The position numbers and the translations under genes were made by a program. Below the pieces are notes generated by a model. That model was not told where the DNA came from and made no database searches. It worked only from the letters and a program-made list of their open reading frames with translations. From positions 1-31,394 of the IMG/VR virus record IMGVR_UViG_3300046003_002324: a stretch of DNA of 31,394 nt, one strand, 5' to 3'. This document shows, in pieces, positions 1,964 to 24,918 of this stretch (positions within the stretch are counted from its first letter, which is position 1; each line of letters starts with the position of its first letter). Source of the stretch: a virus.

Positions 1964-2859
1964 TAGTTCGTGACCGTGCGATTCCGCGCCAGTCGTCGGC
2001 GGTCTGCGCGTCTCGCGTTCTCGCGGAGTTTGCGAATCTCGTTCATGTTGACGGCAAAATTGGGGGCGCGCTTATTCTTGCCCACAAGCGAGGTGTATTC
2101 CTCCGACACCACCGGGAGAAACGAATGTCGGCAGTTATAGCCGCCACCGGTAATAAACGGATTAGGCAATTGATTATTGTCCATCGCTTCAATCTCGGCA
2201 CGGGTGTAGACCTTGCCGTATCGCTCGAGGCACCAATCACGCGTGCGGCCATCCGCAGGGCCAACATACATATACGCTTGCTCAGGGCCAAGGTCTTCGG
2301 TACTCATGGCCTGTAGCTGTCGCCCGTAAATACTCACCTGCGTATCGAACAGCGTTTGAACGTCGTTGAAATTCGTGTCAAGAACCTTTGCCAACCCTTT
2401 CAGGATGTCGTCCTGATTCCGCACGGTCAGTGACCACACCGACACGGCGGCATTCAGTGCCGTCGCAATATCCTCCGCAACCCCTAACAGGTTGGCACGG
2501 CCAATCTCCGCAAGAGCCGCGATGCGCTTCGGGTTGGGCATAATAAATGCTTGCACGCCTGACACACGGCGTTGCTTTCGCAACACTTCAGCCATGCGTT
2601 CCACCGCGTCACTGGCGGTGGTTTCAATCAGGTCGTCATAACCAGCGGCCCGAAGCGCCTCACGAATATCGGTGCGAAGCGTCAAGCCCCGCACGGCACG
2701 TATGGTTGCCGTGCGGTCTTTGTCGAGGGCGTCACGTAAGACAGGCAGCAACGCCCGGTCTGATGCGCGGAGAACATTGACCAGTAACCGCGCAAAGTCA
2801 TCGCTGATGTCCTGCGCGACGGCGGCAATTGCATTCCCGGCGCTCTCAGGCGTTGCCAT
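1963..2859 (-). CDS. MuF-like minor head protein
   Basis: This 298-aa protein is a phage Mu gpF-like minor head protein, which usually associates with the portal inside the capsid. The N-terminal 170 residues are helical. The diagnostic C-terminal block is YVGPADGRTRDWCLERYGKV near residues 198-217, followed by FITGGGYNCRHSFLPV. It matches the family pattern 'D-x-x-T-R-x-x-C ... G-K-x ... N-C-R-H/C'. The last 30 residues are strongly basic (ENARRADRRRLARNR), possibly contacting DNA. ATG 2859 overlaps the end of the portal gene by 14 bases, the usual portal-MuF pairing. No extra toxin or ADP-ribosyltransferase domain is fused. Confidence 0.8.
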   Translation of the reverse strand: MATPESAGNAIAAVAQDISDDFARLLVNVLRASDRALLPVLRDALDKDRTATIRAVRGLTLRTDIREALRAAGYDDLIETTASDAVERMAEVLRKQRRVSGVQAFIMPNPKRIAALAEIGRANLLGVAEDIATALNAAVSVWSLTVRNQDDILKGLAKVLDTNFNDVQTLFDTQVSIYGRQLQAMSTEDLGPEQAYMYVGPADGRTRDWCLERYGKVYTRAEIEAMDNNQLPNPFITGGGYNCRHSFLPVVSEEYTSLVGKNKRAPNFAVNMNEIRKLRENARRADRRRLARNRTVTN

Positions 2860-4465
2860 TCGTAGAACCGCTTACTTCTTCTTCGGCTTCTTCGTCATCT
2901 TCATTGGCGTCCTCCTCTTCGAGTGTGGTTAACCGCTGCGTCAATGCCTCAACGCTTGCCTGTCGACGTGCCGTCGCAGACTCTGTGGGCGTCTGTTCAA
3001 TTTCCGTATCCACTGTTGCGAGTGTCTCGTCGTTCAAATCCGTCAACACCGCACGGGCGGCACGCTTGCGAATTTCCGACGAGGCGGTCGGCCCGAGGTC
3101 TAGCGTCAACGCTTCGCTAAACTGCTTGGTCAACTGCTCGAGTGGCGTGACTTCGAACGACTGCGGCCACCGAATGGTCAACGCATCTTGCTCTTGCCAT
3201 GTCTCTGCCGCGTCGCCATAGTAGGCGCGATACACGAGGCTGGTCACAAATTCGTCCACGCGCTGCAGTTCGTCGGCAAAGCTCGATAGCTGCTGATTCA
3301 GGTCTTCGCGTTTGATGCGTCGTGACTCGCCAGATTCGTTTGATCGACTGTCGCCTTCCCACGGCAACACTGACAAGCGATAAATCAGTCGCGTGAGACG
3401 GTCAATGTGTTCGTGGTAACTCGTCACATTCGAGTTATCAGGCGACAGCATCTGCGCGGAGTTTGTGGTGAACAGGATGTTGCCCGTGCCACTCTGCTGC
3501 CCAATGAGTTCCTGCTCACGCTGCACGCCACCCGGCGTGTCTCCGACCGGGACATTCAGAATGCTGAACGTCTGCTTGCGGAGGAGTTCGCGTGTCTCGC
3601 TGACAAGGTTATACAAGTCGATGAATAGCTGCGGGTCGCCCAGCACACTGCGCCCGATGAACGGTGTCAGGGCGCGACGCTTCGCATACAACACAAACGC
3701 TGGCACGCGCCCGAAGTCATGCTCGCCCTCGGTAATGACTTTGCCGGCACGATTCAACAGTCGCCACCCATCGGCGGTCACCTCGCGGATACGAATATCC
3801 ACCGACTGTGTGTTACTGAGTTTAGCAAACGTTTCACGTGGAACGGCCTCAAGAAACTTGACGGCGGTGAGTGCGCCCTGCTCATTCACGAGCCAGTCCA
3901 CCACATCGACAGGCGTGTACCATTTCACGATGGCACGACGCGGGTCGTCGGGCAGGACATCGACATAGCCCCACATATGCCCGAACGCAGCACACGGACT
4001 CCACGCTTCCATGAGCGAGTCATTCCACGTAGTGCCATTGCCGTCACTGTCATTCCAAAATTGCTGAATGGGACGCATGACTGGCGAGTCACTCTCGTCG
4101 GCGAAGCTGCGGTCAGCTTTGACGCGGAAGAGTGCCCCGCTCAATTGATCAATCAGTGTGGCGGCAATGTTCTCGTAGCGCGCCAGCTTGCGTCGTTCCT
4201 TTAGCTTGGCCGACGGGTTACGCGGTGACGGATTTGGCTCATACCGCAGGAGTTCATTGTTCGGGCCATAGACTGGCGTCGAGTGGTCAAGCCATTCACG
4301 CGGGTGGGCAATCAGATACGGCTTTGACTCGTCAAGGAATCCACCAGCGCCCTCGTAAACATCGAGGAGTTTGATCCACACGCTACGCCATCGCGTATAC
4401 AGCGGATGGGCAACACCAAGAACGGAGGACGGCTGACTGAGTGGCGATGAGGCGGGAATCGGCAC
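2846..4465 (-). CDS. Portal protein (DUF4055-like)
   Basis: The 539-aa product should form the dodecameric ring at the head vertex through which DNA is packaged. Size, position before MuF, and segments such as AKLKERRKLARYENIAATLI followed by LIDQLSGALFR, a beta-rich wing with WYTPVDVVDWLVNEQGALTA, and a later helical region rich in Q/E (LNQQLSSFADELQRVDEFVT) fit DUF4055-type portals. The C-terminal tail is very acidic (EEEDANEDDEEAEEEVSG). The start is a GTG at 4465 with no good ribosome site. An in-frame stop lies 12 codons or fewer upstream and no ATG follows for over 150 codons, so GTG 4465 is the best available start. The family is recalled, not searched. Confidence 0.78.
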   Translation of the reverse strand: MPIPASSPLSQPSSVLGVAHPLYTRWRSVWIKLLDVYEGAGGFLDESKPYLIAHPREWLDHSTPVYGPNNELLRYEPNPSPRNPSAKLKERRKLARYENIAATLIDQLSGALFRVKADRSFADESDSPVMRPIQQFWNDSDGNGTTWNDSLMEAWSPCAAFGHMWGYVDVLPDDPRRAIVKWYTPVDVVDWLVNEQGALTAVKFLEAVPRETFAKLSNTQSVDIRIREVTADGWRLLNRAGKVITEGEHDFGRVPAFVLYAKRRALTPFIGRSVLGDPQLFIDLYNLVSETRELLRKQTFSILNVPVGDTPGGVQREQELIGQQSGTGNILFTTNSAQMLSPDNSNVTSYHEHIDRLTRLIYRLSVLPWEGDSRSNESGESRRIKREDLNQQLSSFADELQRVDEFVTSLVYRAYYGDAAETWQEQDALTIRWPQSFEVTPLEQLTKQFSEALTLDLGPTASSEIRKRAARAVLTDLNDETLATVDTEIEQTPTESATARRQASVEALTQRLTTLEEEDANEDDEEAEEEVSGSTNGNA

Positions 4466-5068: not shown

Positions 5069-5303
5069 CGGGATGTCTCCGTGTCATGAAGTCGAGAATA
5101 ACGGCACGCGTGCTGGCGTCTTTCTCCGTCTGCGCTTTCAACACTTCCACGCGAGCCATCGCCCAGCCCACGAGATAGCCCATAGCGTTCGCGCCACACC
5201 AACAGCCAACGGCATAGGTCGCCCATCGCGGTAGCTCAGCGGTCATGACCAACACGATGCCGCACACGAGATACACCACCCCTTTGATGAGCATCACAGC
5301 CAT
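5049..5303 (-). CDS. Small two-helix membrane protein, unknown function
   Basis: The 84-aa product has two hydrophobic segments, about residues 4-21 (LIKGVVYLVCGIVLVMTA) and 27-49 (WATYAVGCWCGANAMGYLVG). A short charged C-terminal tail follows (RVEVLKAQTEKDASTRAVIL). ATG 5303 has AGGA about 8 bases upstream and overlaps the TerL stop by 10 bases; a second ATG lies three codons in. A holin-like or inner-membrane accessory role is possible, but a better holin candidate sits beside the lysozyme at 24921-25085. Confidence 0.55.
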   Translation of the reverse strand: MAVMLIKGVVYLVCGIVLVMTAELPRWATYAVGCWCGANAMGYLVGWAMARVEVLKAQTEKDASTRAVILDFMTRRHPDGPTTH

Positions 5304-6568
5304 GAGGAAAATCCTACTCCAACACCGCCTCGCGTTACGGGTGGAAAATCCTGATGCACCCAGTAGCCCAACGCATCGGAGATGTGCGTCAGTAACGGGT
5401 TGCTGCGTTTGTCGAGGTCGCCAGACTCCGCGAACACGACCTGCTCAAGGTCGCTGATGAGATGCTCGCAGGATGGATCCACAGTTAACCACTGTCGCCC
5501 GTCGTGTGTTTCGCATCGGGCATTCACCGCTTGGATACGGTCACGCACATGCGGTGCCGCTTTAGGAATGCGCCATGACGCTCGAGGAAATACCTGCGCC
5601 AACACCGCATGGTCGGACGGCCCGGTGGTTTTGCCGGCTCGCCCAGCAGGGTCACCGTAACCATAGATAGGGCCAGTCCACTGCGCGGCATTCAAATGTG
5701 CTTGCACCGCAAGAGCCGCCGCTCGCGTCGCCTCGCCACCCGCGTGCGACACCCACACTTCGCGCCACACCCGAATCTCGTTGCCAATCCGTTGCCCGAT
5801 CACCGCCGTCGCCGGGTTCAGGTTGAAGTCAAATGAGATGCACACCGGCACCGCCGGGTCGAGCGTCGCCGGGCGCATGTGCGTCGCACGTGCGAACGCA
5901 TAGTAGGCGCGACCGGATAGCCCCTCGAAGCTGGCTTCAAACTCCTGCCGATACGTTCGCGGATCCATCTCTCGGCGCATCTGCTCGAGTGTGTCGGCAG
6001 GAATATGAGGCGCATCCGCGGTGCGGAATTGCCATGACTCCCACCCGGCATAGCGTTCGTCAGTCGACTGACCTCGTGCCCAGAGTGTATACAAATGGTT
6101 GAATTGTTTCGGCGTGCCCGTAATGAGTGCCGTGCCGTTCGTCGTCAGGAGCATCGGTTGAAGCACCTGCTCCCAAATCGTCATGCCGTCTTGCCAGTCT
6201 TGAAACTCATCGATCAGCAATTTCCGCACGCCACGTCCGCGAAGACGATCAGGCCGGTCGGCAGACTTAACGCTGAACTGACAGCCCCAAATGGTGTGCA
6301 TGTCCATGCGGCTGTCATTCGGTTCTTTAATGAGCCATGCACGCGGAATAATCGCACGCAATGGCTCCCAAAAGATTTCACGCCCCATGTCGTATGTCGG
6401 GGCCACATACCACACTTTGCCCGGTGTGCCGAACTCACACGTGGCGTCGGCCTTCTCGAGTTCTGTCTTGCCCCACCGTCGCCCTGCGACCACCACGCGA
6501 TAGCGTGCCCGTGACCGATACACTTTGGCTTGGCCGCGGTGCAACGACAACCGCACCGGGTCATTCAT
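5294..6568 (-). CDS. terL: Terminase large subunit
   Basis: This 424-aa enzyme is the ATP-driven DNA packaging motor and genome-cutting nuclease. The ATPase domain has a Walker A AGRRWGKT (residues 28-35), a Walker B LLIDE (117-121) and a coupling motif ITGTP (149-153). The C-terminal RNase H-like nuclease domain shows acidic residues at D246 (SFDFN), D305 (GYGDPAG) and D397 (HISDALGY), as in active terminases. Length fits a normal TerL. ATG 6568 overlaps the TerS stop (ATGAATGA). Packaging mode (cos or headful) cannot be read from the window. Terminus recognition may have to cope with modified bases if the upstream cassette is active. Confidence 0.93.
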   Translation of the reverse strand: MNDPVRLSLHRGQAKVYRSRARYRVVVAGRRWGKTELEKADATCEFGTPGKVWYVAPTYDMGREIFWEPLRAIIPRAWLIKEPNDSRMDMHTIWGCQFSVKSADRPDRLRGRGVRKLLIDEFQDWQDGMTIWEQVLQPMLLTTNGTALITGTPKQFNHLYTLWARGQSTDERYAGWESWQFRTADAPHIPADTLEQMRREMDPRTYRQEFEASFEGLSGRAYYAFARATHMRPATLDPAVPVCISFDFNLNPATAVIGQRIGNEIRVWREVWVSHAGGEATRAAALAVQAHLNAAQWTGPIYGYGDPAGRAGKTTGPSDHAVLAQVFPRASWRIPKAAPHVRDRIQAVNARCETHDGRQWLTVDPSCEHLISDLEQVVFAESGDLDKRSNPLLTHISDALGYWVHQDFPPVTRGGVGVGFSSWL

Positions 6569-7013
6569 CGTCGTCCGTCTGCACCTGTAGCACGAACTTT
6601 GGCAGCTCGCCGATAATCTCTTGCTTCGTGGCTGCGTCTAGCCCGAGATACCGTGACCGCCGTTCCTGCACACGGAGCAAGGTCGTGATGGCGGCAATGT
6701 CGCCCTGTGCGGCTCGAGGTGCGAGTGCCCGTGTGTAGTCGTCGAGCCGTCGCAGTTCGAGTTCACGCACTGCTGTCGCGTCTTCCACCGTTTGCAATCG
6801 CAACGCGGATAGTTCGGCCTGTACATCTGAGTAGGCCGTTTCAAGACTGACGCCGGTGGCCGTCGCAATCTGCTGATACGTGACCCCGGCACGGCGAAGA
6901 CTCAACGCCTTCGCTCGTCGTTCCATAATGATTGTGTCTTCAGCAATATGAGGAGGACGCGTTGCACGGCCCTTACCTCTGCGATGAGGCGCCACTGTTT
7001 TTTTGACACTCAT
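6561..7013 (-). CDS. terS: Terminase small subunit
   Basis: The 150-aa basic protein precedes TerL and has a helix-turn-helix near residues 40-65 (RRAGVTYQQIATATGVSLET), a central oligomerisation helix (ELELRRLDDYTRALAPRA) and a C-terminal tail, the usual TerS plan for DNA recognition and ring assembly. I use ATG 7013, which has GAAGG 7 bases upstream. An upstream in-frame TTG would add 8 residues and overlap the kinase gene. The stop overlaps TerL. Only 10 bases separate it from the DNA-kinase gene, so the modification cassette and packaging genes are probably on one transcript. Confidence 0.78.
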   Translation of the reverse strand: MSVKKTVAPHRRGKGRATRPPHIAEDTIIMERRAKALSLRRAGVTYQQIATATGVSLETAYSDVQAELSALRLQTVEDATAVRELELRRLDDYTRALAPRAAQGDIAAITTLLRVQERRSRYLGLDAATKQEIIGELPKFVLQVQTDDDE

Positions 7014-7023
7014 GGATTGGCCT

Positions 7024-7575
7024 TCACGCTTGCTCAACGATTGCCCAAACTTGTTCGGCTAACACATCTGGCGATTGCCGCGCATCCAAATGAATTACCG
7101 CTTGATGCCGTGCCGCCAGATTGGCGTGTTTCGTAATGCGCCCTCTCACCCACGACGTGGCTTGCAACGATAGCCCGTGAGCAGAGGCTCTTGCTGTGCG
7201 TCGTCGAGCCGCCTCATCATCAGGGCATGCGAGATAAAACGCTTTGAGCCGGAAGTGTTTTTGAGTCACTTCAAAAAACTTGTCATTCGCGAGTCGGTCA
7301 CCTTCGCCAAATACCAATTTGCCTGCCGCACATGATGACAGTGCGTGTAGCCACTGATCTGCGGTATTAATCGCCGTGTATGACAGCGTATCTGTGCCGC
7401 CAAATGGATATGCGTCCGCGCCTAAAATTGAAAACAAGCGACCGTGTTTATTAAAACAGCGATGTTTGATAGGGTCTTGTGCTTCATAGAGCAAGGACGC
7501 TGAGTTACAAACTGCCCTAAGCAAACTGGTTTTACCTGCCCCCGGTTGGCCGAAAACATACGCAAGAGTATTCAC
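7024..7575 (-). CDS. P-loop kinase, 5-hydroxymethyluracil-DNA kinase-like
   Basis: The 183-aa protein has a clean Walker A GQPGAGKTS (residues 9-17), a FGGTDTLSY segment (58-66), a LVFGEGDRLAN segment (87-97) holding the likely Walker B acids, and SWVRGRITKHANLA (141-154) with lid-type arginines. This arrangement resembles the small P-loop kinases that phosphorylate 5-hydroxymethyl-dU in phage DNA (5-HMUDK), here without the helical domain, which is a separate protein encoded next door. GTG 7575 has AGGAGG 4 bases upstream and overlaps the neighbour's stop (GTGA). The inferred role is to phosphorylate the hydroxymethyl group in DNA. A generic nucleotide kinase is the main alternative; the partner genes argue for the DNA-kinase reading. 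Confidence 0.75.
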   Translation of the reverse strand: MNTLAYVFGQPGAGKTSLLRAVCNSASLLYEAQDPIKHRCFNKHGRLFSILGADAYPFGGTDTLSYTAINTADQWLHALSSCAAGKLVFGEGDRLANDKFFEVTQKHFRLKAFYLACPDDEAARRRTARASAHGLSLQATSWVRGRITKHANLAARHQAVIHLDARQSPDVLAEQVWAIVEQA

Positions 7576-8447
7576 TGTGCCTCCTGACGCCAGCGAGCGT
7601 CAAATGTTTCGGCTCGATAATCCCACAACACTTGCCATTCGACTCCGCGATTTACACGTGTGGCCATCTCTTGAATTTCCTCGCGTTGCCGTTCAATATA
7701 AAATCCGACATATCGCTTGCCATAGCAATACTTCTTGTAGGCGCATAACGTCGTCTCAATGTTCCACACATTGTTGCGCGGGTCTGCGGTTTTCATCGTC
7801 GCCACTAAGGCATCGAATTGTTTCTGTAGATAGGCGTGTTGCGCCTTGTTTAGTTTGACGCCAGTGCCGTGCGTGTTCAGGTCTCCGCGATTTATGGCAA
7901 GAGCTAATCCGTTACGACAACTCTCAGCGTCAGTCATGTTCATTGACGTTGGTTCCATGGGAAACCCTGTCACGACGTGCAGCGCCTCCAGATAGAGGAA
8001 CATGGCGAATCGGCCAAATTGATACATTCGTGCAAAACTATTCCAGCAGTTGTGATAGTTCAGCCGAATGTCATGAGACTTTAGTTGTTCGAACCGTTGT
8101 TGCTGCGTGACTGGCCCAATGGTGGCGCGATAACTCTTGAACATGTCAACAAACTGATTTCTGGAATACACCCAGCGACGATCAGTCTGAAACACCAGTT
8201 GATGCTTGTGCGCTTTCCACCATCGCTCGAGTCTGCCCTCATCCACGTTCTCAAAGTCAGGGAACTCGTTGTAAATATAAAAGACTGTCGGGCCGCAATA
8301 ACAGGTCGCGTACAGCCACGCTAGCCAGTAGCGTTGTTCCACATTTAAATCAAACCGGTCACAGACATACCGAAGCATTGAATAGGACGGGTCAATATCA
8401 CCGGCCTCCATGCTTTGTTGGTGATACGTTTGGTAATCAACCAACAT
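7572..8447 (-). CDS. Amino-acid:DNA transferase / alpha-glutamyl-putrescinyl-thymine pyrophosphorylase-like protein
   Basis: This 291-aa protein has the all-helical, aromatic-rich character of the HMUDK-helical / aGPT-PPlase / amino-acid:DNA transferase group described in phage thymidine hypermodification. Recognisable blocks are GDIDPSYSMLRYVCDRFDL (residues 16-34), EQRYWLAWLYATCYCGPTVF (37-56), YIYNEFPDFENV (57-68), RLERWWKAHK (72-81) and NIETTLCAYKKYCYGKRY (229-246). Known members displace the activated (pyrophosphorylated) hydroxymethyl group with an amine or amino acid. I chose ATG 8447 with GGAG 9 bases upstream; it overlaps the amidotransferase stop by 11 bases. The identity of the incoming amine is not visible here. 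The family is recalled from motifs; a profile search would settle it. Confidence 0.75.
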   Translation of the reverse strand: MLVDYQTYHQQSMEAGDIDPSYSMLRYVCDRFDLNVEQRYWLAWLYATCYCGPTVFYIYNEFPDFENVDEGRLERWWKAHKHQLVFQTDRRWVYSRNQFVDMFKSYRATIGPVTQQQRFEQLKSHDIRLNYHNCWNSFARMYQFGRFAMFLYLEALHVVTGFPMEPTSMNMTDAESCRNGLALAINRGDLNTHGTGVKLNKAQHAYLQKQFDALVATMKTADPRNNVWNIETTLCAYKKYCYGKRYVGFYIERQREEIQEMATRVNRGVEWQVLWDYRAETFDARWRQEAQ

Positions 8448-9057
8448 GGACTGCGACTCCGCACGGCACGGGCGTGGGCAGTTCCGTAAAACCGGCTCGT
8501 CTAAAAATGTCAGCGGTCGATGCAAAGAATGTTGCGTTGTTGTGTTCTACTCGAAACAACGGGCGGTTTTTATTGCGAAGTGCAGTCATTCGACCGCGTT
8601 GCAGAGTCAACCCGGCAAATGAGAATCGCCCAGTCGCGACAAACTCCAGCCACCCGTCGTGGCGCACAAACTTATCAAGAAAGATTTCTCCATCATTTTC
8701 TGTGAGGTATGCGCGAGCATATTGCCGCTCATACTCTTCCTTGACTGCCATTGAAATTACTCCGTTAAACGCCAACGCCGCGTCAGCAATCTGCAGCGGT
8801 TGATTATTGTCAACGTTCTGGTAATCGCCACTTGTCGAGTAACGGCAGTGCCCGATTAGACGTGTCACCTGACGAGGCAGAGCGGCAAGGCACTGCTTGA
8901 AATCAAGGAACCGCTGTGTTGCAACACGCTGGCCGTCCCACGCAGAAAATCCGAACGCGTGCAAGCCGCGTACGCGAGACTCATAAAATAACGCACGCAC
9001 CGCGTCTGCGTGTTCTGTCTGCGGGTCATCGCACGCGTAACCAATCAGGGCGCACAT
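8437..9057 (-). CDS. Class II glutamine amidotransferase (Ntn hydrolase)
   Basis: The 206-aa protein begins Met-Cys, so removal of Met would expose the catalytic Cys1 typical of class II glutamine amidotransferases. Supporting motifs are LIGHCRYSTSGDYQNVDNNQ (residues 67-86) and an ALAFNGVIS block (93-101), matching the family's 'G-H-x-R-Y-S/T-x-G ... Q-P' and 'N-G-x-I' glutamine-binding elements. It is a stand-alone glutaminase domain without a fused synthetase, so ammonia or an amino group would have to pass to another protein, plausibly the transferase whose gene overlaps its end. ATG 9057 directly follows the previous stop (TGAATG). Known family members act in amide and amine transfer. 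A role in making an aminated DNA base is my inference from context. Confidence 0.8.
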   Translation of the reverse strand: MCALIGYACDDPQTEHADAVRALFYESRVRGLHAFGFSAWDGQRVATQRFLDFKQCLAALPRQVTRLIGHCRYSTSGDYQNVDNNQPLQIADAALAFNGVISMAVKEEYERQYARAYLTENDGEIFLDKFVRHDGWLEFVATGRFSFAGLTLQRGRMTALRNKNRPLFRVEHNNATFFASTADIFRRAGFTELPTPVPCGVAVHVG

Positions 9058-9456
9058 TCACCACCCCTGATATACGTTGAGCGTTTTTCCGCTTCTGCTT
9101 CTTGTCTGCCCGACGCACATCAAGCCCATTGCCCTGTAGAAGGCATTGCTTTCGACATTGTCTGCGTCTGTTTTTAGCGATACTGGACGACCCACTGCCT
9201 TCACCAACTGTTTGCCGATGCCAGAACGTTTGGCAGACTGACTCACGGCCATTTCAATAATTGTTTTCATCCCGCCAGTATTACGTTTGTAATGAACAAA
9301 TCCAACAGGACGCACGACTAGCAATGCGTGATTCGGCCTGTTGTATGAATTCAATAACCAAAACGGGTTGCCAAGGATTTTCTCGTTCGCATAGTACAAC
9401 AGTGTTATCCATGGAATGTCGTCTGCTTTCGCTTCGACAACATCGCTCTTGCTCAT
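9058..9456 (-). CDS. GNAT-family N-acyltransferase
   Basis: The 132-aa protein shows the GNAT core: a beta strand ending TIIEMAVSQSAKRSGIGKQL, in which the last part is the acetyl-CoA pyrophosphate-binding 'R/Q-x-x-G-x-G/A' loop (KRSGIG), and a C-terminal SLKTDADNVESNAFYRAMGL block (motif B: N-x-x-x-x-x-F-Y-x-x-x-G). I use ATG 9456 because it overlaps the dioxygenase stop as ATGA and has GGAG about 10 bases upstream; a further ATG at 9492 would overlap by 40 bases. GNAT proteins are known in phage thymidine hypermodification clusters, where they may acylate an amine on the base. Here the substrate is inferred from neighbours only. Confidence 0.8.
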   Translation of the reverse strand: MSKSDVVEAKADDIPWITLLYYANEKILGNPFWLLNSYNRPNHALLVVRPVGFVHYKRNTGGMKTIIEMAVSQSAKRSGIGKQLVKAVGRPVSLKTDADNVESNAFYRAMGLMCVGQTRSRSGKTLNVYQGW

Positions 9457-10361
9457 GACAAGCGTTCTCCGCGTTTGCGGTTCTTGGCCCATTCCACTTC
9501 CTCAGTGGCTGGTTTGCAATGAATCATATTTTCACGGAAGTAAAACACCATCGTGATGCGTTCATAGCCCACGCGCATTTTTGAAAATCCGGTATTGCTG
9601 TGCCACTCGTGCACATCTGCTAAACACAAACAGCCGTGTTCCAAATTGACGGCCACGCGATACGCTGGAAACACAAGGTATGCGCCGTCAAATTTGTTAT
9701 TCCGTAAACACGACATGACGCCAAAACCTGCGGCTAAATCTCCGGCGTCTTTATGAGTGGCCGTCTGCCAGTTTTTATTGACCGTCACCGTCGTGAATGT
9801 GCTTTGTGGGATGATCCAGTCCGATGCCGTTCTGTCGGCATACTCGCGTTGCGCGGCCCATCGCTCGGGCAATAGCTGACGCAGCCCTTCATCTGCGCGT
9901 TGAATATACGGCAGGAACTGTTTCCACGAGGCGGCTTGAACAATATTGAATGACGTTTGACGACAAAACGGAAACCTTGATGAACGGTCAAAATATCCAA
10001 TGACGCCGCTGTTCACAGGAGCTGCATAATTGGTATTGCTCAGGGTGCCATCAGATTTTATTGGAATATAACGCGTCTGTGTTCGTTTGCCGGCAACACG
10101 TTCTGGAACTGTTTCAAACGTCCCCGCCGCCATACCTCGGTTGTTGGTTTCAGTGGCGGCTTTACGAGCCGACGGCAATACCGCAGCACAAAGCTCAGCT
10201 GAAAACCACTGGGGCCGATACTTGACGAGCGGGGTGCCGTCGGGTTTGTAGATGTCGCAAGCCTCGTCACCACCCAACACTTCGTCGTAAAACGCTTCTG
10301 TCAATTTGGTGCCGGCCAGATGGTCGGCGTCAAACTTATGTTTGCAATGATGCACTCTCAC
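9453..10361 (-). CDS. TET/JBP-family Fe(II)/2-oxoglutarate dioxygenase (DNA base hydroxylase)
   Basis: The 302-aa product (counting from GTG 10361) contains the TET/JBP signature. TTVTVNKNWQTATHKDAGDL gives the iron-binding H203-x-D205, followed by GAYLVFPAYRVAVNLEHG, then CLADVHEWHSNTGF with the distal histidine H251 (or H254), and ERITMVFYFREN with R268 positioned to bind 2-oxoglutarate. TET/JBP enzymes hydroxylate the 5-methyl group of T or 5mC in DNA. No cytosine methyltransferase is in the window, and the neighbours are hydroxymethyl-U kinase/transferase-like, so thymine is the favoured substrate (inference). GTG 10361 has GGAGG 9 bases upstream and overlaps the ParB-like gene by 26 bases; a TTG at 10418 is open in frame but lacks support. 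Confidence 0.82.
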   Translation of the reverse strand: MRVHHCKHKFDADHLAGTKLTEAFYDEVLGGDEACDIYKPDGTPLVKYRPQWFSAELCAAVLPSARKAATETNNRGMAAGTFETVPERVAGKRTQTRYIPIKSDGTLSNTNYAAPVNSGVIGYFDRSSRFPFCRQTSFNIVQAASWKQFLPYIQRADEGLRQLLPERWAAQREYADRTASDWIIPQSTFTTVTVNKNWQTATHKDAGDLAAGFGVMSCLRNNKFDGAYLVFPAYRVAVNLEHGCLCLADVHEWHSNTGFSKMRVGYERITMVFYFRENMIHCKPATEEVEWAKNRKRGERLS

Positions 10362-10974
10362 GGGTAACTGCCTCCAAGACCGTGTCTGTAATGTTTTTCG
10401 TGCCGTATGCCTCCGCAAGCGCAGTGCACGCGTTCTGAAAATCTACGATGTTCGATTCATCAAGGAACAATTGCACCATGCGGACGCCGCTCGGCGTCAA
10501 TTCATTGGCGTTGTCTATGTCGTGCGTTGACGCTGGACGCACTTCCTCGTCGGCGTCATCTTTATACAGTCCTGCGGCATTAGCTGTTGCGGTAATCAGC
10601 CTTTGCAGGTCGGCGTTGCCTGTATCAATGCTCTGCAGCAGTTCATCAAGCTTTTGAGCATCAGACCCGGCCATCGCAGCTAACGGGTCAAGTGTTGCCA
10701 ACAGCTTATCTGCCTCAGCCTCGCTGACATCCAGCACCAACACCGGCACTACGGCGGTGCCGACGGTTTCCGCACGGAGATGCCCGTCAATAAGCATCAG
10801 CGTGCCGTCTGGAAGTTCACGCGCAATACACGCGTCGGCCATGCCGATTTCTGACAGCAAACCCCGCAATGCATTTTTCTGCGGGACTTGATGTGTGCGC
10901 CAGTTTTTCGGGTTGGGCCGCAGGTCGGCGGCTGGCACCCGGCGAAGTTCTTTGATGCGGTCACGAATCTGCAT
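10336..10974 (-). CDS. ParB-like (ParB/sulfiredoxin-fold) protein of the modification cassette
   Basis: This 212-aa protein has a ParB N-terminal-type domain: PADLRPNPKNWRTH-like start (VPAADLRPNPKNWRTHQVP, residues 13-31), ALRGLLSEIGMADACIAREL (35-54) and the nucleotide-binding LIDGHLRAE box (61-69). A linker DPLAAMAGSDAQKLDELL and a C-terminal domain with NELTPSGVRMVQLFLDESN follow. ParB-like proteins are recurrent partners of TET/JBP and aGPT-PPlase genes in phages; a DNA-targeting or NTPase role has been proposed but I know of no firm function. ATG 10974 has no clear ribosome site. It is the first gene of the cassette, after a 90-base gap, so a transcript start just upstream is possible. 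Confidence 0.75.
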   Translation of the reverse strand: MQIRDRIKELRRVPAADLRPNPKNWRTHQVPQKNALRGLLSEIGMADACIARELPDGTLMLIDGHLRAETVGTAVVPVLVLDVSEAEADKLLATLDPLAAMAGSDAQKLDELLQSIDTGNADLQRLITATANAAGLYKDDADEEVRPASTHDIDNANELTPSGVRMVQLFLDESNIVDFQNACTALAEAYGTKNITDTVLEAVTRESASLQT

Positions 10975-15061: not shown

Positions 15062-15388
15062 TTACTCCGCGTGCGATAGAATTGCCAATGCCCACGCCAA
15101 TGCCTGTCGGGTCATCACCTGCTGTGGCGTGACACGCAGGAACAACCATCCGTCCATGGCAAGGTGAGCGATTTTTTCGTTATCTTTCATGACGCCGGTG
15201 CCTCGCGTGTGTCGTCCTTGCACCCAGACACCGCCGTCAATTTCAATGGCAAGCTTGCGTGACGTGGTGGCACTCGAGACGGCGACATCAATACGCCATC
15301 GTCGTGTCTCATGGAATTTAAATTCCGTACGCACGACAAAGCCACTCGCCGCTAATGCGTCGGCGAGCAGCCGTTGAGCCTGTGTCAT
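15062..15388 (-). CDS. Small PD-(D/E)XK endonuclease (DUF559/Vsr-like fold)
   Basis: The 108-aa protein has D34 in RRWRIDVAV, then LAIEIDGGVW with E49 and D51, and then GRHTRGTGVMKDNEK, MDGWLFLRVTP. This arrangement resembles very-short-patch-repair/DUF559-type nucleases of the PD-(D/E)XK superfamily: a beta strand with D, a beta strand with E-x-D/K, a charged helix and 'G-W-x-x-x-R-x-T'. I use ATG 15388 since it overlaps the preceding gene's TGA as ATGA; a GTG at 15412 would add eight residues. It could act in DNA repair, in host DNA degradation, or as a homing-type nuclease. No intron or intein is visible. Confidence 0.7.
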   Translation of the reverse strand: MTQAQRLLADALAASGFVVRTEFKFHETRRWRIDVAVSSATTSRKLAIEIDGGVWVQGRHTRGTGVMKDNEKIAHLAMDGWLFLRVTPQQVMTRQALAWALAILSHAE

Positions 15389-15528
15389 TTGGTTTGAGTC
15401 GAGGGTGTCCACCCGGCCTTGCGGAGTGCGCCGTAAATATACGCCTCGGCTCGTGTGCCTGTTAAGCCTTTCCGAGCGGCTTCGCGTTTCAGGTCAGCCT
15501 CGAGTTTCCCGTATTTGTCCTGCGGCAT
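15385..15528 (-). CDS. 47-aa conserved-looking small protein
   Basis: The start is MPQDKYGKLEADLKREAARK, the centre GLTGTRAEAYIYGALRKAGW and the end TPSTQTK. The pattern 'L-x-x-x-A-x-x-K-G-L-x-G-x-R-x-x-A-Y-x-Y-G-x-L-R-K-x-G-W' is one I recall as a short conserved phage protein, often beside a nuclease. ATG 15528 is preceded by AGGGG. Its stop overlaps the nuclease start as ATGA, so the two are likely co-translated and may function together. Confidence 0.6.
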   Translation of the reverse strand: MPQDKYGKLEADLKREAARKGLTGTRAEAYIYGALRKAGWTPSTQTK

Positions 15529-15818: not shown

Positions 15819-16075
15819 CGCGTCCCCTCCATCAGCGCCCGGATGCGCCGTGCCATCTCCGCTGCCGCGTCTTTGCCGCCCCACGTTTCGGCGGTCGCTT
15901 CCACCTCGTCGGCCACCGATGCACAATGCGCGAGCAGTTCTGCCCGCGCCTCGTCGCGCTCTTCCCGCAGCCGCTCGACTTCGGCCCGATGGTCGTCGTA
16001 GCGTATCCATTCGCCATCGACCGCTGGCGTATACACGCAAGGGCCATAAATAATAAACCGTTGAATATCACTCAT
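15815..16075 (-). CDS. Small coiled-coil protein, unknown
   Basis: The 86-aa product starts MSDIQRFIIYGPCVYTPAVD, with a helical charged centre YDDHRAEVERLREERDEARA and end MARRIRALMEGTR. ATG 16075 lies inside the end of the preceding gene (8-base overlap). The N-terminal 25 residues look beta-like, the remainder a coiled coil. No family is recognised. Confidence 0.5.
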   Translation of the reverse strand: MSDIQRFIIYGPCVYTPAVDGEWIRYDDHRAEVERLREERDEARAELLAHCASVADEVEATAETWGGKDAAAEMARRIRALMEGTR

Positions 16076-24345: not shown

Positions 24346-24918
24346 TCACGTAAAACTTTCGGCCCATGCCCAGTAGTGGCGCTGCACTAGCTGGACAAGC
24401 CGCTGTTGCATCACCTCGGGCCGCCCGTGCAGGTTGTCAATTCGTAGATGAAAGTCTGACGCGGTCAGCGCCGTCTCGCTGATGTGCGTGGTTGGGCGGT
24501 CACCCGAGACGAACGGCACGCCGTCGGGCGCATAGCGCGTGATGCACACGAGCAAGCCGTGGTTTTCCCGTATCCACTGCGCCTCATTGGGAAACCGCAC
24601 ATCGGGCACCACGACCACACCGGGACGATAGTTGCGGTCAACGCTCCAGTCATGCACCGCCCACGCCACCGCTCGCACCCAGACGTCTGGATCGGTTTGT
24701 CGACGACCGACGCCCACCTGCTGGAGCAAGGCGGCATCCTTCTCCGTCATCTCATGATTGACGCGACACACGGCACGCACCGCATCGGCAAACCCAATGC
24801 GATACGCTTCGGCCCCGAATGCCGCACAGATCGCGGCGGCGGCGGTGTCCTTGCCGTGTCGAGCTTTATGTCCCAGCCCGACAATAAACACGTTGCGGAG
24901 TGTCGGGAACGGACGCAC
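24346..24918 (-). CDS. Deoxynucleoside monophosphate kinase-like P-loop protein
   Basis: The 190-aa protein has a P-loop-like GLGHKARHGKDTAAAAI (residues 14-30), with GKDT replacing the usual GKS/T, and a VVVVPDVRFPNEAQWI block (101-116). This 'G-x-K-x-x-G-K-D-T ... D-V-R-F-x-N-E' pattern is that of the T4 gp1-type dNMP kinase group, which phosphorylates dNMPs for DNA synthesis. GTG 24918 is the start, four bases from the preceding stop and without a strong ribosome site. It might supply dNTPs; whether it handles a modified nucleotide cannot be told. The region 24237-24345 downstream holds the terminator and TATAAT box only. Confidence 0.75.
   Translation of the reverse strand: MRPFPTLRNVFIVGLGHKARHGKDTAAAAICAAFGAEAYRIGFADAVRAVCRVNHEMTEKDAALLQQVGVGRRQTDPDVWVRAVAWAVHDWSVDRNYRPGVVVVPDVRFPNEAQWIRENHGLLVCITRYAPDGVPFVSGDRPTTHISETALTASDFHLRIDNLHGRPEVMQQRLVQLVQRHYWAWAESFT

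Follow-up and report, generated by a model that had tools for sequence, protein, structure and literature searches.

A proposed glutamine-dependent thymidine hypermodification cassette in uncultivated viruses

The window analyzed, the whole 31,394-nucleotide stretch of the virus record IMGVR_UViG_3300046003_002324, carries a six-gene cassette that is read, with somewhat more confidence than doubt, as a glutamine-dependent thymidine hypermodification system acting on thymine already in DNA, in the order TET, kinase, GAT with ADDT, and GNAT. The core of ParB, TET, ADDT and kinase genes is already known from phages of soil, while the glutamine-dependent step appears to be undescribed. The reading draws on the content and identity of the genes, their catalytic residues and predicted folds, their conserved linkage and exclusive gene swaps, from which a substrate, an order of steps, a donor and a product are proposed.

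In the proposed pathway, the TET enzyme would oxidize the thymine methyl group to give 5-hydroxymethyl-dU in DNA, which the P-loop kinase would phosphorylate to 5-phosphomethyl-dU. The GAT would then hydrolyze glutamine and hand the ammonia to the ADDT, which would displace the phosphate to form 5-aminomethyl-dU, and the GNAT would acylate this amine, perhaps to form an N-acetyl cap. Binding to DNA may be assisted by the ParB-like protein, and the modified base would shield the phage genome from nucleases.

Gene layout and family assignments

The six open reading frames were confirmed at 7024–10974, all on the minus strand and placed directly upstream of the terminase genes. Their start and stop coordinates agree with the single co-oriented cassette, linked end to end by overlaps or abutments of 0 to 26 bases, that had been described initially. 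The cassette and its downstream context are as follows:

10336–10974, minus strand: ParB-like protein, first cassette gene; PHROGs 1.8e-13, 1e-10 and 3e-10, Pfam ParB_N 0.12
9453–10361, minus strand: TET/JBP Fe(II)/2-oxoglutarate dioxygenase (TET); GTG start, 26-base overlap with the ParB-like gene; PF12851 2.5e-19
9058–9456, minus strand: GNAT acyltransferase; ATG start, 4-base ATGA overlap with TET; PF13508 and PF00583
8437–9057, minus strand: stand-alone class II glutamine amidotransferase (GAT) with N-terminal Cys2; ATG start, abuts GNAT; PF13522 1.8e-8
7572–8447, minus strand: amino acid:DNA transferase (ADDT) with the PUGT fold; ATG start, 11-base overlap with GAT; PF18724 5.6e-23
7024–7575, minus strand: P-loop kinase; 4-base overlap with ADDT; PF18751 3.2e-14
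6561–7037, minus strand (context): probable small terminase, next gene downstream, from its position before the large terminase; phrog_645 1.4e-27, there named RNase E
5294–6568, minus strand (context): terminase large subunit (TerL); phrog_2 3.5e-40

The Pfam matches to Tet_JBP, ADDT, Ploopntkinase3, GATase_6 and Acetyltransf_7 (8.9e-7) all exceed the curated cut-offs, and in the GNAT both PF13508 and PF00583 do so. The ParB-like protein matches weakly in Pfam and clearly in PHROGs, where its best match is a DNA methyltransferase family and the other two are ParB-like families; it is the first gene in most related cassettes and possibly aids DNA recruitment or binding. All six families named in the preliminary description were thus recovered by profile searches, with one correction: the kinase belongs to PF18751 and not to the HMUDK families as named, PF18748 being absent from the matches listed for it.

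The catalytic motifs are in place. In an alignment of 33 homologues, two actinophages included, the metal and 2-oxoglutarate residues of TET (H203-x-D205, H254 and R268) are invariant, and the enzyme is proposed to oxidize thymine in DNA to 5-hydroxymethyluracil. The kinase conserves the GxPGxGK Walker A motif, T61-D62 and EG-R94 (25 homologues for Walker A and EG-R94). It belongs to a P-loop family linked to DNA modification and is a candidate 5-hydroxymethyl-dU DNA kinase; its profile matched only generic P-loop proteins in the PDB. The GNAT has a KRSGIG motif resembling the acetyl-CoA loop and is proposed to cap the newly made amine. Cassette kinases are labelled "terminase small subunit" in PHROG phrog_800 and in PaMx11 gp49 (L152, 19218–19787), probably because they adjoin the terminase.

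The cassette is the most AT-rich part of the record, with a GC fraction of 0.515 against 0.567–0.639 in every other segment of equal length, which suggests that it was acquired as a block. The window kinase (36% identical to that of Wooper) lies nearer to actinophage kinases than to most cassette kinases (about 20–35%), in which it differs from the window's TET, GAT and ADDT; the cassette is therefore regarded as a mosaic. The record is a fragment, as 548 bases of a sister contig extend beyond its left end without a match. Elsewhere in the window, two BLAST pieces of sister contig L002 overlap across 46 bases (15942–15987), pointing to a difference in short tandem repeat copy number or in assembly. 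A deoxynucleoside monophosphate kinase-like gene is found at 24346–24918 (phrog_139 4.1e-28, DNMK slightly under cut-off) and a small restriction-endonuclease-like protein at 15062–15412 (MTES_1575 3e-7, under cut-off).

Conservation and gene replacement in related cassettes

Pattern scans with the ADDT, GAT or kinase as a single protein matched almost only the same phage, so that alignments were needed. A scan with the TET gave 68 loci, and the ADDT-alignment scan of one public viral collection gave 190 relatives, of which 80 were kept. HMM annotation of these loci resolved 67 ADDT clusters at 95% identity, counts that are not phylogenetically independent and that include a first scan selected for TET.

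HMM searches showed the same gene set, adjacent and co-oriented, in dozens of independent viral contigs, far beyond chance, with TET and ADDT mostly 40–56% identical to those of the window. The form with a GAT is widespread among uncultivated viruses: the GAT adjoins the ADDT or lies one gene apart in 55 of the 67 ADDT clusters, and a GNAT is present in 35 of those 55. The commonest order is ParB-TET-GAT-GNAT-ADDT-kinase; that of the window, with GNAT before GAT, also occurs in L107. A large terminase was recognized downstream in 40 clusters, and in 30 of them it starts about 230–510 bases past the kinase. The closest other TET (L087) is 74% identical, its ADDT 78%, and in this cassette an Amidoligase_2 gene separates TET from GAT, at the place taken by GNAT in the window. 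An optional GNAT and an Amidoligase_2 gene in this position are what one would predict if a free amine were the substrate of both. Amidoligase_2 genes replacing or beside GNAT were seen in L087 (about 2206–3036, 7.9e-7) and L096 (6885–7745, linked to the L087 gene only by an HMM match of 1e-10). Another cassette (L061, 504–2467) has two neighboring TET genes, and a 328-aa gene of no recognized family before ADDT.

Two pairs of genes exclude each other among the 67 ADDT clusters. The GAT (55 clusters) never occurs together with a PaMx11-like flavin-lyase gene (5 clusters, among them L010), and the flavin-lyase clusters have a shorter ADDT of 240 aa. The flavin-enzyme gene of these cassettes matches two flavin-dependent lyases of solved structure (8z2o and 8z79), and an HMM built from the cassette lyase-like genes found no match in the window, which is a fragment. 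In one cluster with a 240-aa ADDT (L057), both the GAT and the flavin lyase are missing. Similarly, TET (59 clusters) and a radical-SAM gene (4 clusters) do not co-occur, and the latter may be an alternative activator of the thymine methyl group.

The radical-SAM gene was seen only in TET-less GAT-ADDT cassettes (L083, 9918–11162; L085, 9865–11115; L096, 8768–10018; L135, 6235–7524), and where PF04055 matched, in two of them, it fell slightly short of the cut-off. In L083, a Bacteroidales MAG contig, a SAM synthetase gene (5511–6545, PF00438 2.7e-20) immediately precedes the ParB-GAT-ADDT-radical-SAM set. A nearby dUMP hydroxymethylase was considered for the TET-less Bacteroidales loci; none was recognized in the cassette loci retrieved, although the two MAGs have PF00303 matches elsewhere.

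The proposed aminating step and its substrate

The predicted ADDT structure (pLDDT 93.3) matches best PaMx11 gp46, or PUGT (8z2m), with Z 19.0 and rmsd 3.4 over 255 aligned residues, and the next matches are DNA glycosylases with Z under 8. The title of 8z2m names a 5-phosphomethyl-dU glycinyltransferase, so the window ADDT is expected, from its model, to act on 5-phosphomethyl-dU in DNA. The ADDT profile also recovered 8z2m among PDB sequences, together with the ADDT-domain entry 25qc; PDB sequence searches with single cassette proteins gave no matches. In the GAT, the class II residues C2, R72, N98, G99 and D122 are invariant in an alignment of 27 homologues. Its model (pLDDT 93.6) is closest to the GlmS glutaminase domain (Z 22.3) within a range of Z 19–22 for GlmS and PurF glutaminase domains, and on this basis it is proposed to supply ammonia to the ADDT. 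A GAT-ADDT fusion ORF was looked for and none was found. Distances in GAT and ADDT are correlated with a Mantel r of 0.92, the highest of the cassette pairs, those with TET giving 0.68–0.72. One ADDT site is Ile or Leu in the GAT-linked proteins, Lys in PUGT, in the 240-aa ADDTs and in three actinophages, and Asn or Ser in others.

PaMx11 encodes, in gp46–gp51, PUGT (gp46), a flavin-dependent lyase (gp47), a GNAT (gp48), a P-loop kinase (gp49), gp50 and a thymidylate-synthase-family gene (gp51). An ADDT fold, a GNAT and a P-loop kinase thus stand side by side in both systems; however, the window has TET in place of the thymidylate-synthase-family enzyme and the GAT in place of the flavin lyase. 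The PaMx11 route passes through 5-phosphomethyl-dU, to which PUGT adds glycine before cleavage by the lyase, two steps for which the GAT and ADDT together would stand in. Because transferase, kinase and GNAT are kept and the GAT replaces the lyase, we infer that the GAT is the direct supplier of the amine. The GAT and its ADDT clade would then be the two subunits of a glutamine-dependent DNA base aminase, exchanging the phosphate on the thymine methyl carbon for ammonia to give 5-aminomethyl-dU in one step; no precedent was found for such an enzyme, and belief and doubt in it are evenly balanced. The order anticipated earlier, namely oxidation, phosphorylation, amination and acylation, fits the swap patterns and the predicted resemblance of the ADDT to the glycinyltransferase.

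Transfer of an amino acid by the window ADDT is doubted because the GAT replaces the lyase, although an amino-acid donor is conceivable since the same fold transfers glycine. The ADDT might therefore put an amino acid on 5-phosphomethyl-dU, with the GAT later trimming the adduct as an Ntn amide hydrolase or amidating a carboxylate, before acylation by the GNAT. The only characterized relative with a structure is indeed the glycine-transferring 8z2m, and the GAT model also resembles an amide hydrolase, EgtC (Z 18.6). Nevertheless, the GAT fits glutaminase domains better, it carries the PurF-like motif set RYST-G...NNQP / FNG / NDG, and it takes the place of an amine-freeing lyase across clusters, so that this scheme is given roughly half the credence of direct amination. 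It is far less probable that GNAT and GAT are unrelated passengers in an ordinary actinophage-type thymidine hypermodification operon. Isolates do have ParB-TET-ADDT-kinase without GAT, but all 55 clusters with a GAT have it fixed beside this ADDT clade, across several gene orders and whether or not TET is present.

Neither the window nor any of the 42 records searched matched the dUMP hydroxymethylase profile PF00303, in keeping with its reported absence from the window, and the C5-cytosine methyltransferase profile PF00145 was missing from the window and from 43 of 47 related records, the window being a fragment in both cases. Two relatives, G048 (49,946 bases) and G036 (29,616 bases), have all six genes and look complete since they carry direct terminal repeats; neither profile was found in these two. 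Both were likewise absent from complete core-bearing phages of Gordonia, Rhodococcus, Microbacterium and Mycobacterium, Wooper, Magpie, Matzah and Tonitrus among them. The control search with PF00303 was positive for Shigella phage Ag3, and PaMx11 gp51 also matches. A phage-borne ThyX (PF02511) was checked for and not found. Thymine is favored as the substrate because terminally redundant relatives with the full cassette lack both dUMP hydroxymethylase and C5-methyltransferase.

A pathway in which TET oxidizes 5-methylcytosine, supplied by a C5-methyltransferase of the phage or, conceivably, of its host, with later enzymes acting on 5-hydroxymethyl-dC, is accordingly thought improbable. It would have a parallel in the phage TET of Burke 2021, also part of a modification pathway but reportedly active in cytosine hypermodification, as cited in PMC11347163, and PF00145 does occur in 4 of the 47 related records. 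The absence of that profile from the window fragment, from G036 and G048 and from the complete core-bearing actinophages argues against it, as does the fold match of the ADDT to a deoxyuridine enzyme.

Relation to known systems and significance

An operon of ParB, TET/JBP, aGPT-Pplase2 and kinase near the terminase, which matches the window in its four core genes and in how they are ordered, is found in the Gordonia phages Wooper and CaiB and in Rhodococcus phage Tonitrus, and related core sets occur in Microbacterium and Mycobacterium phages. In contrast to the window, no GAT or GNAT was found in the actinophages, and their TET and ADDT are only 20–23% identical. The ParB, TET, aGPT-Pplase2/ADDT and kinase genes of Tonitrus have been presented as possibly forming a system for thymidine hypermodification (PMC11955845), and nucleotide modification genes before the terminase of CaiB were reported citing Iyer 2013 (PMC9302106). 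The preliminary description had presented an in-DNA oxygenase replacing a nucleotide-level hydroxymethylase as new; this was not supported, since purified phages already carry such operons.

Its remark that this exact gene set had not been seen described for a purified phage agrees with the searches: tblastn of the phage collection recognized no isolate with the six genes, and TET, GAT and ADDT came together in no isolate neighborhood examined. Thirteen isolates have a TET of the window's clade, none in the host groups holding GAT matches. The GAT, which had not been singled out before, is the part of the cassette for which no precedent was found. The literature search, which fell short of the field's main papers and is weak evidence of novelty, found no text on a GAT in thymidine hypermodification.

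In phages M6 and Vi I, the starting point is 5hmdU that has been incorporated into the DNA (PMC6449724), on which a DNA kinase and then a transferase act, as proposed here; their 5hmdU enters as a nucleotide, whereas in the window, which lacks PF00303, it would be made by TET in DNA. A glutamine amidotransferase domain also serves DNA modification in the Gat-QueC of deoxyarchaeosine phages (PMC6884629), but there the substrate is a 7-deazaguanine and the GAT is fused to QueC.

The cassette would represent a modular means of introducing amines into phage DNA, with parts exchangeable at each step and with direct amination of a DNA base as one possibly new reaction. It also makes it testable whether phage TETs oxidize thymine itself, without dUMP hydroxymethylase or cytosine methyltransferase. 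If the glutamine-fed step is true, it would offer a simple way of placing a reactive primary amine on thymine in DNA with enzymes, a useful tool, and for the phages it would likely be a counter to restriction.
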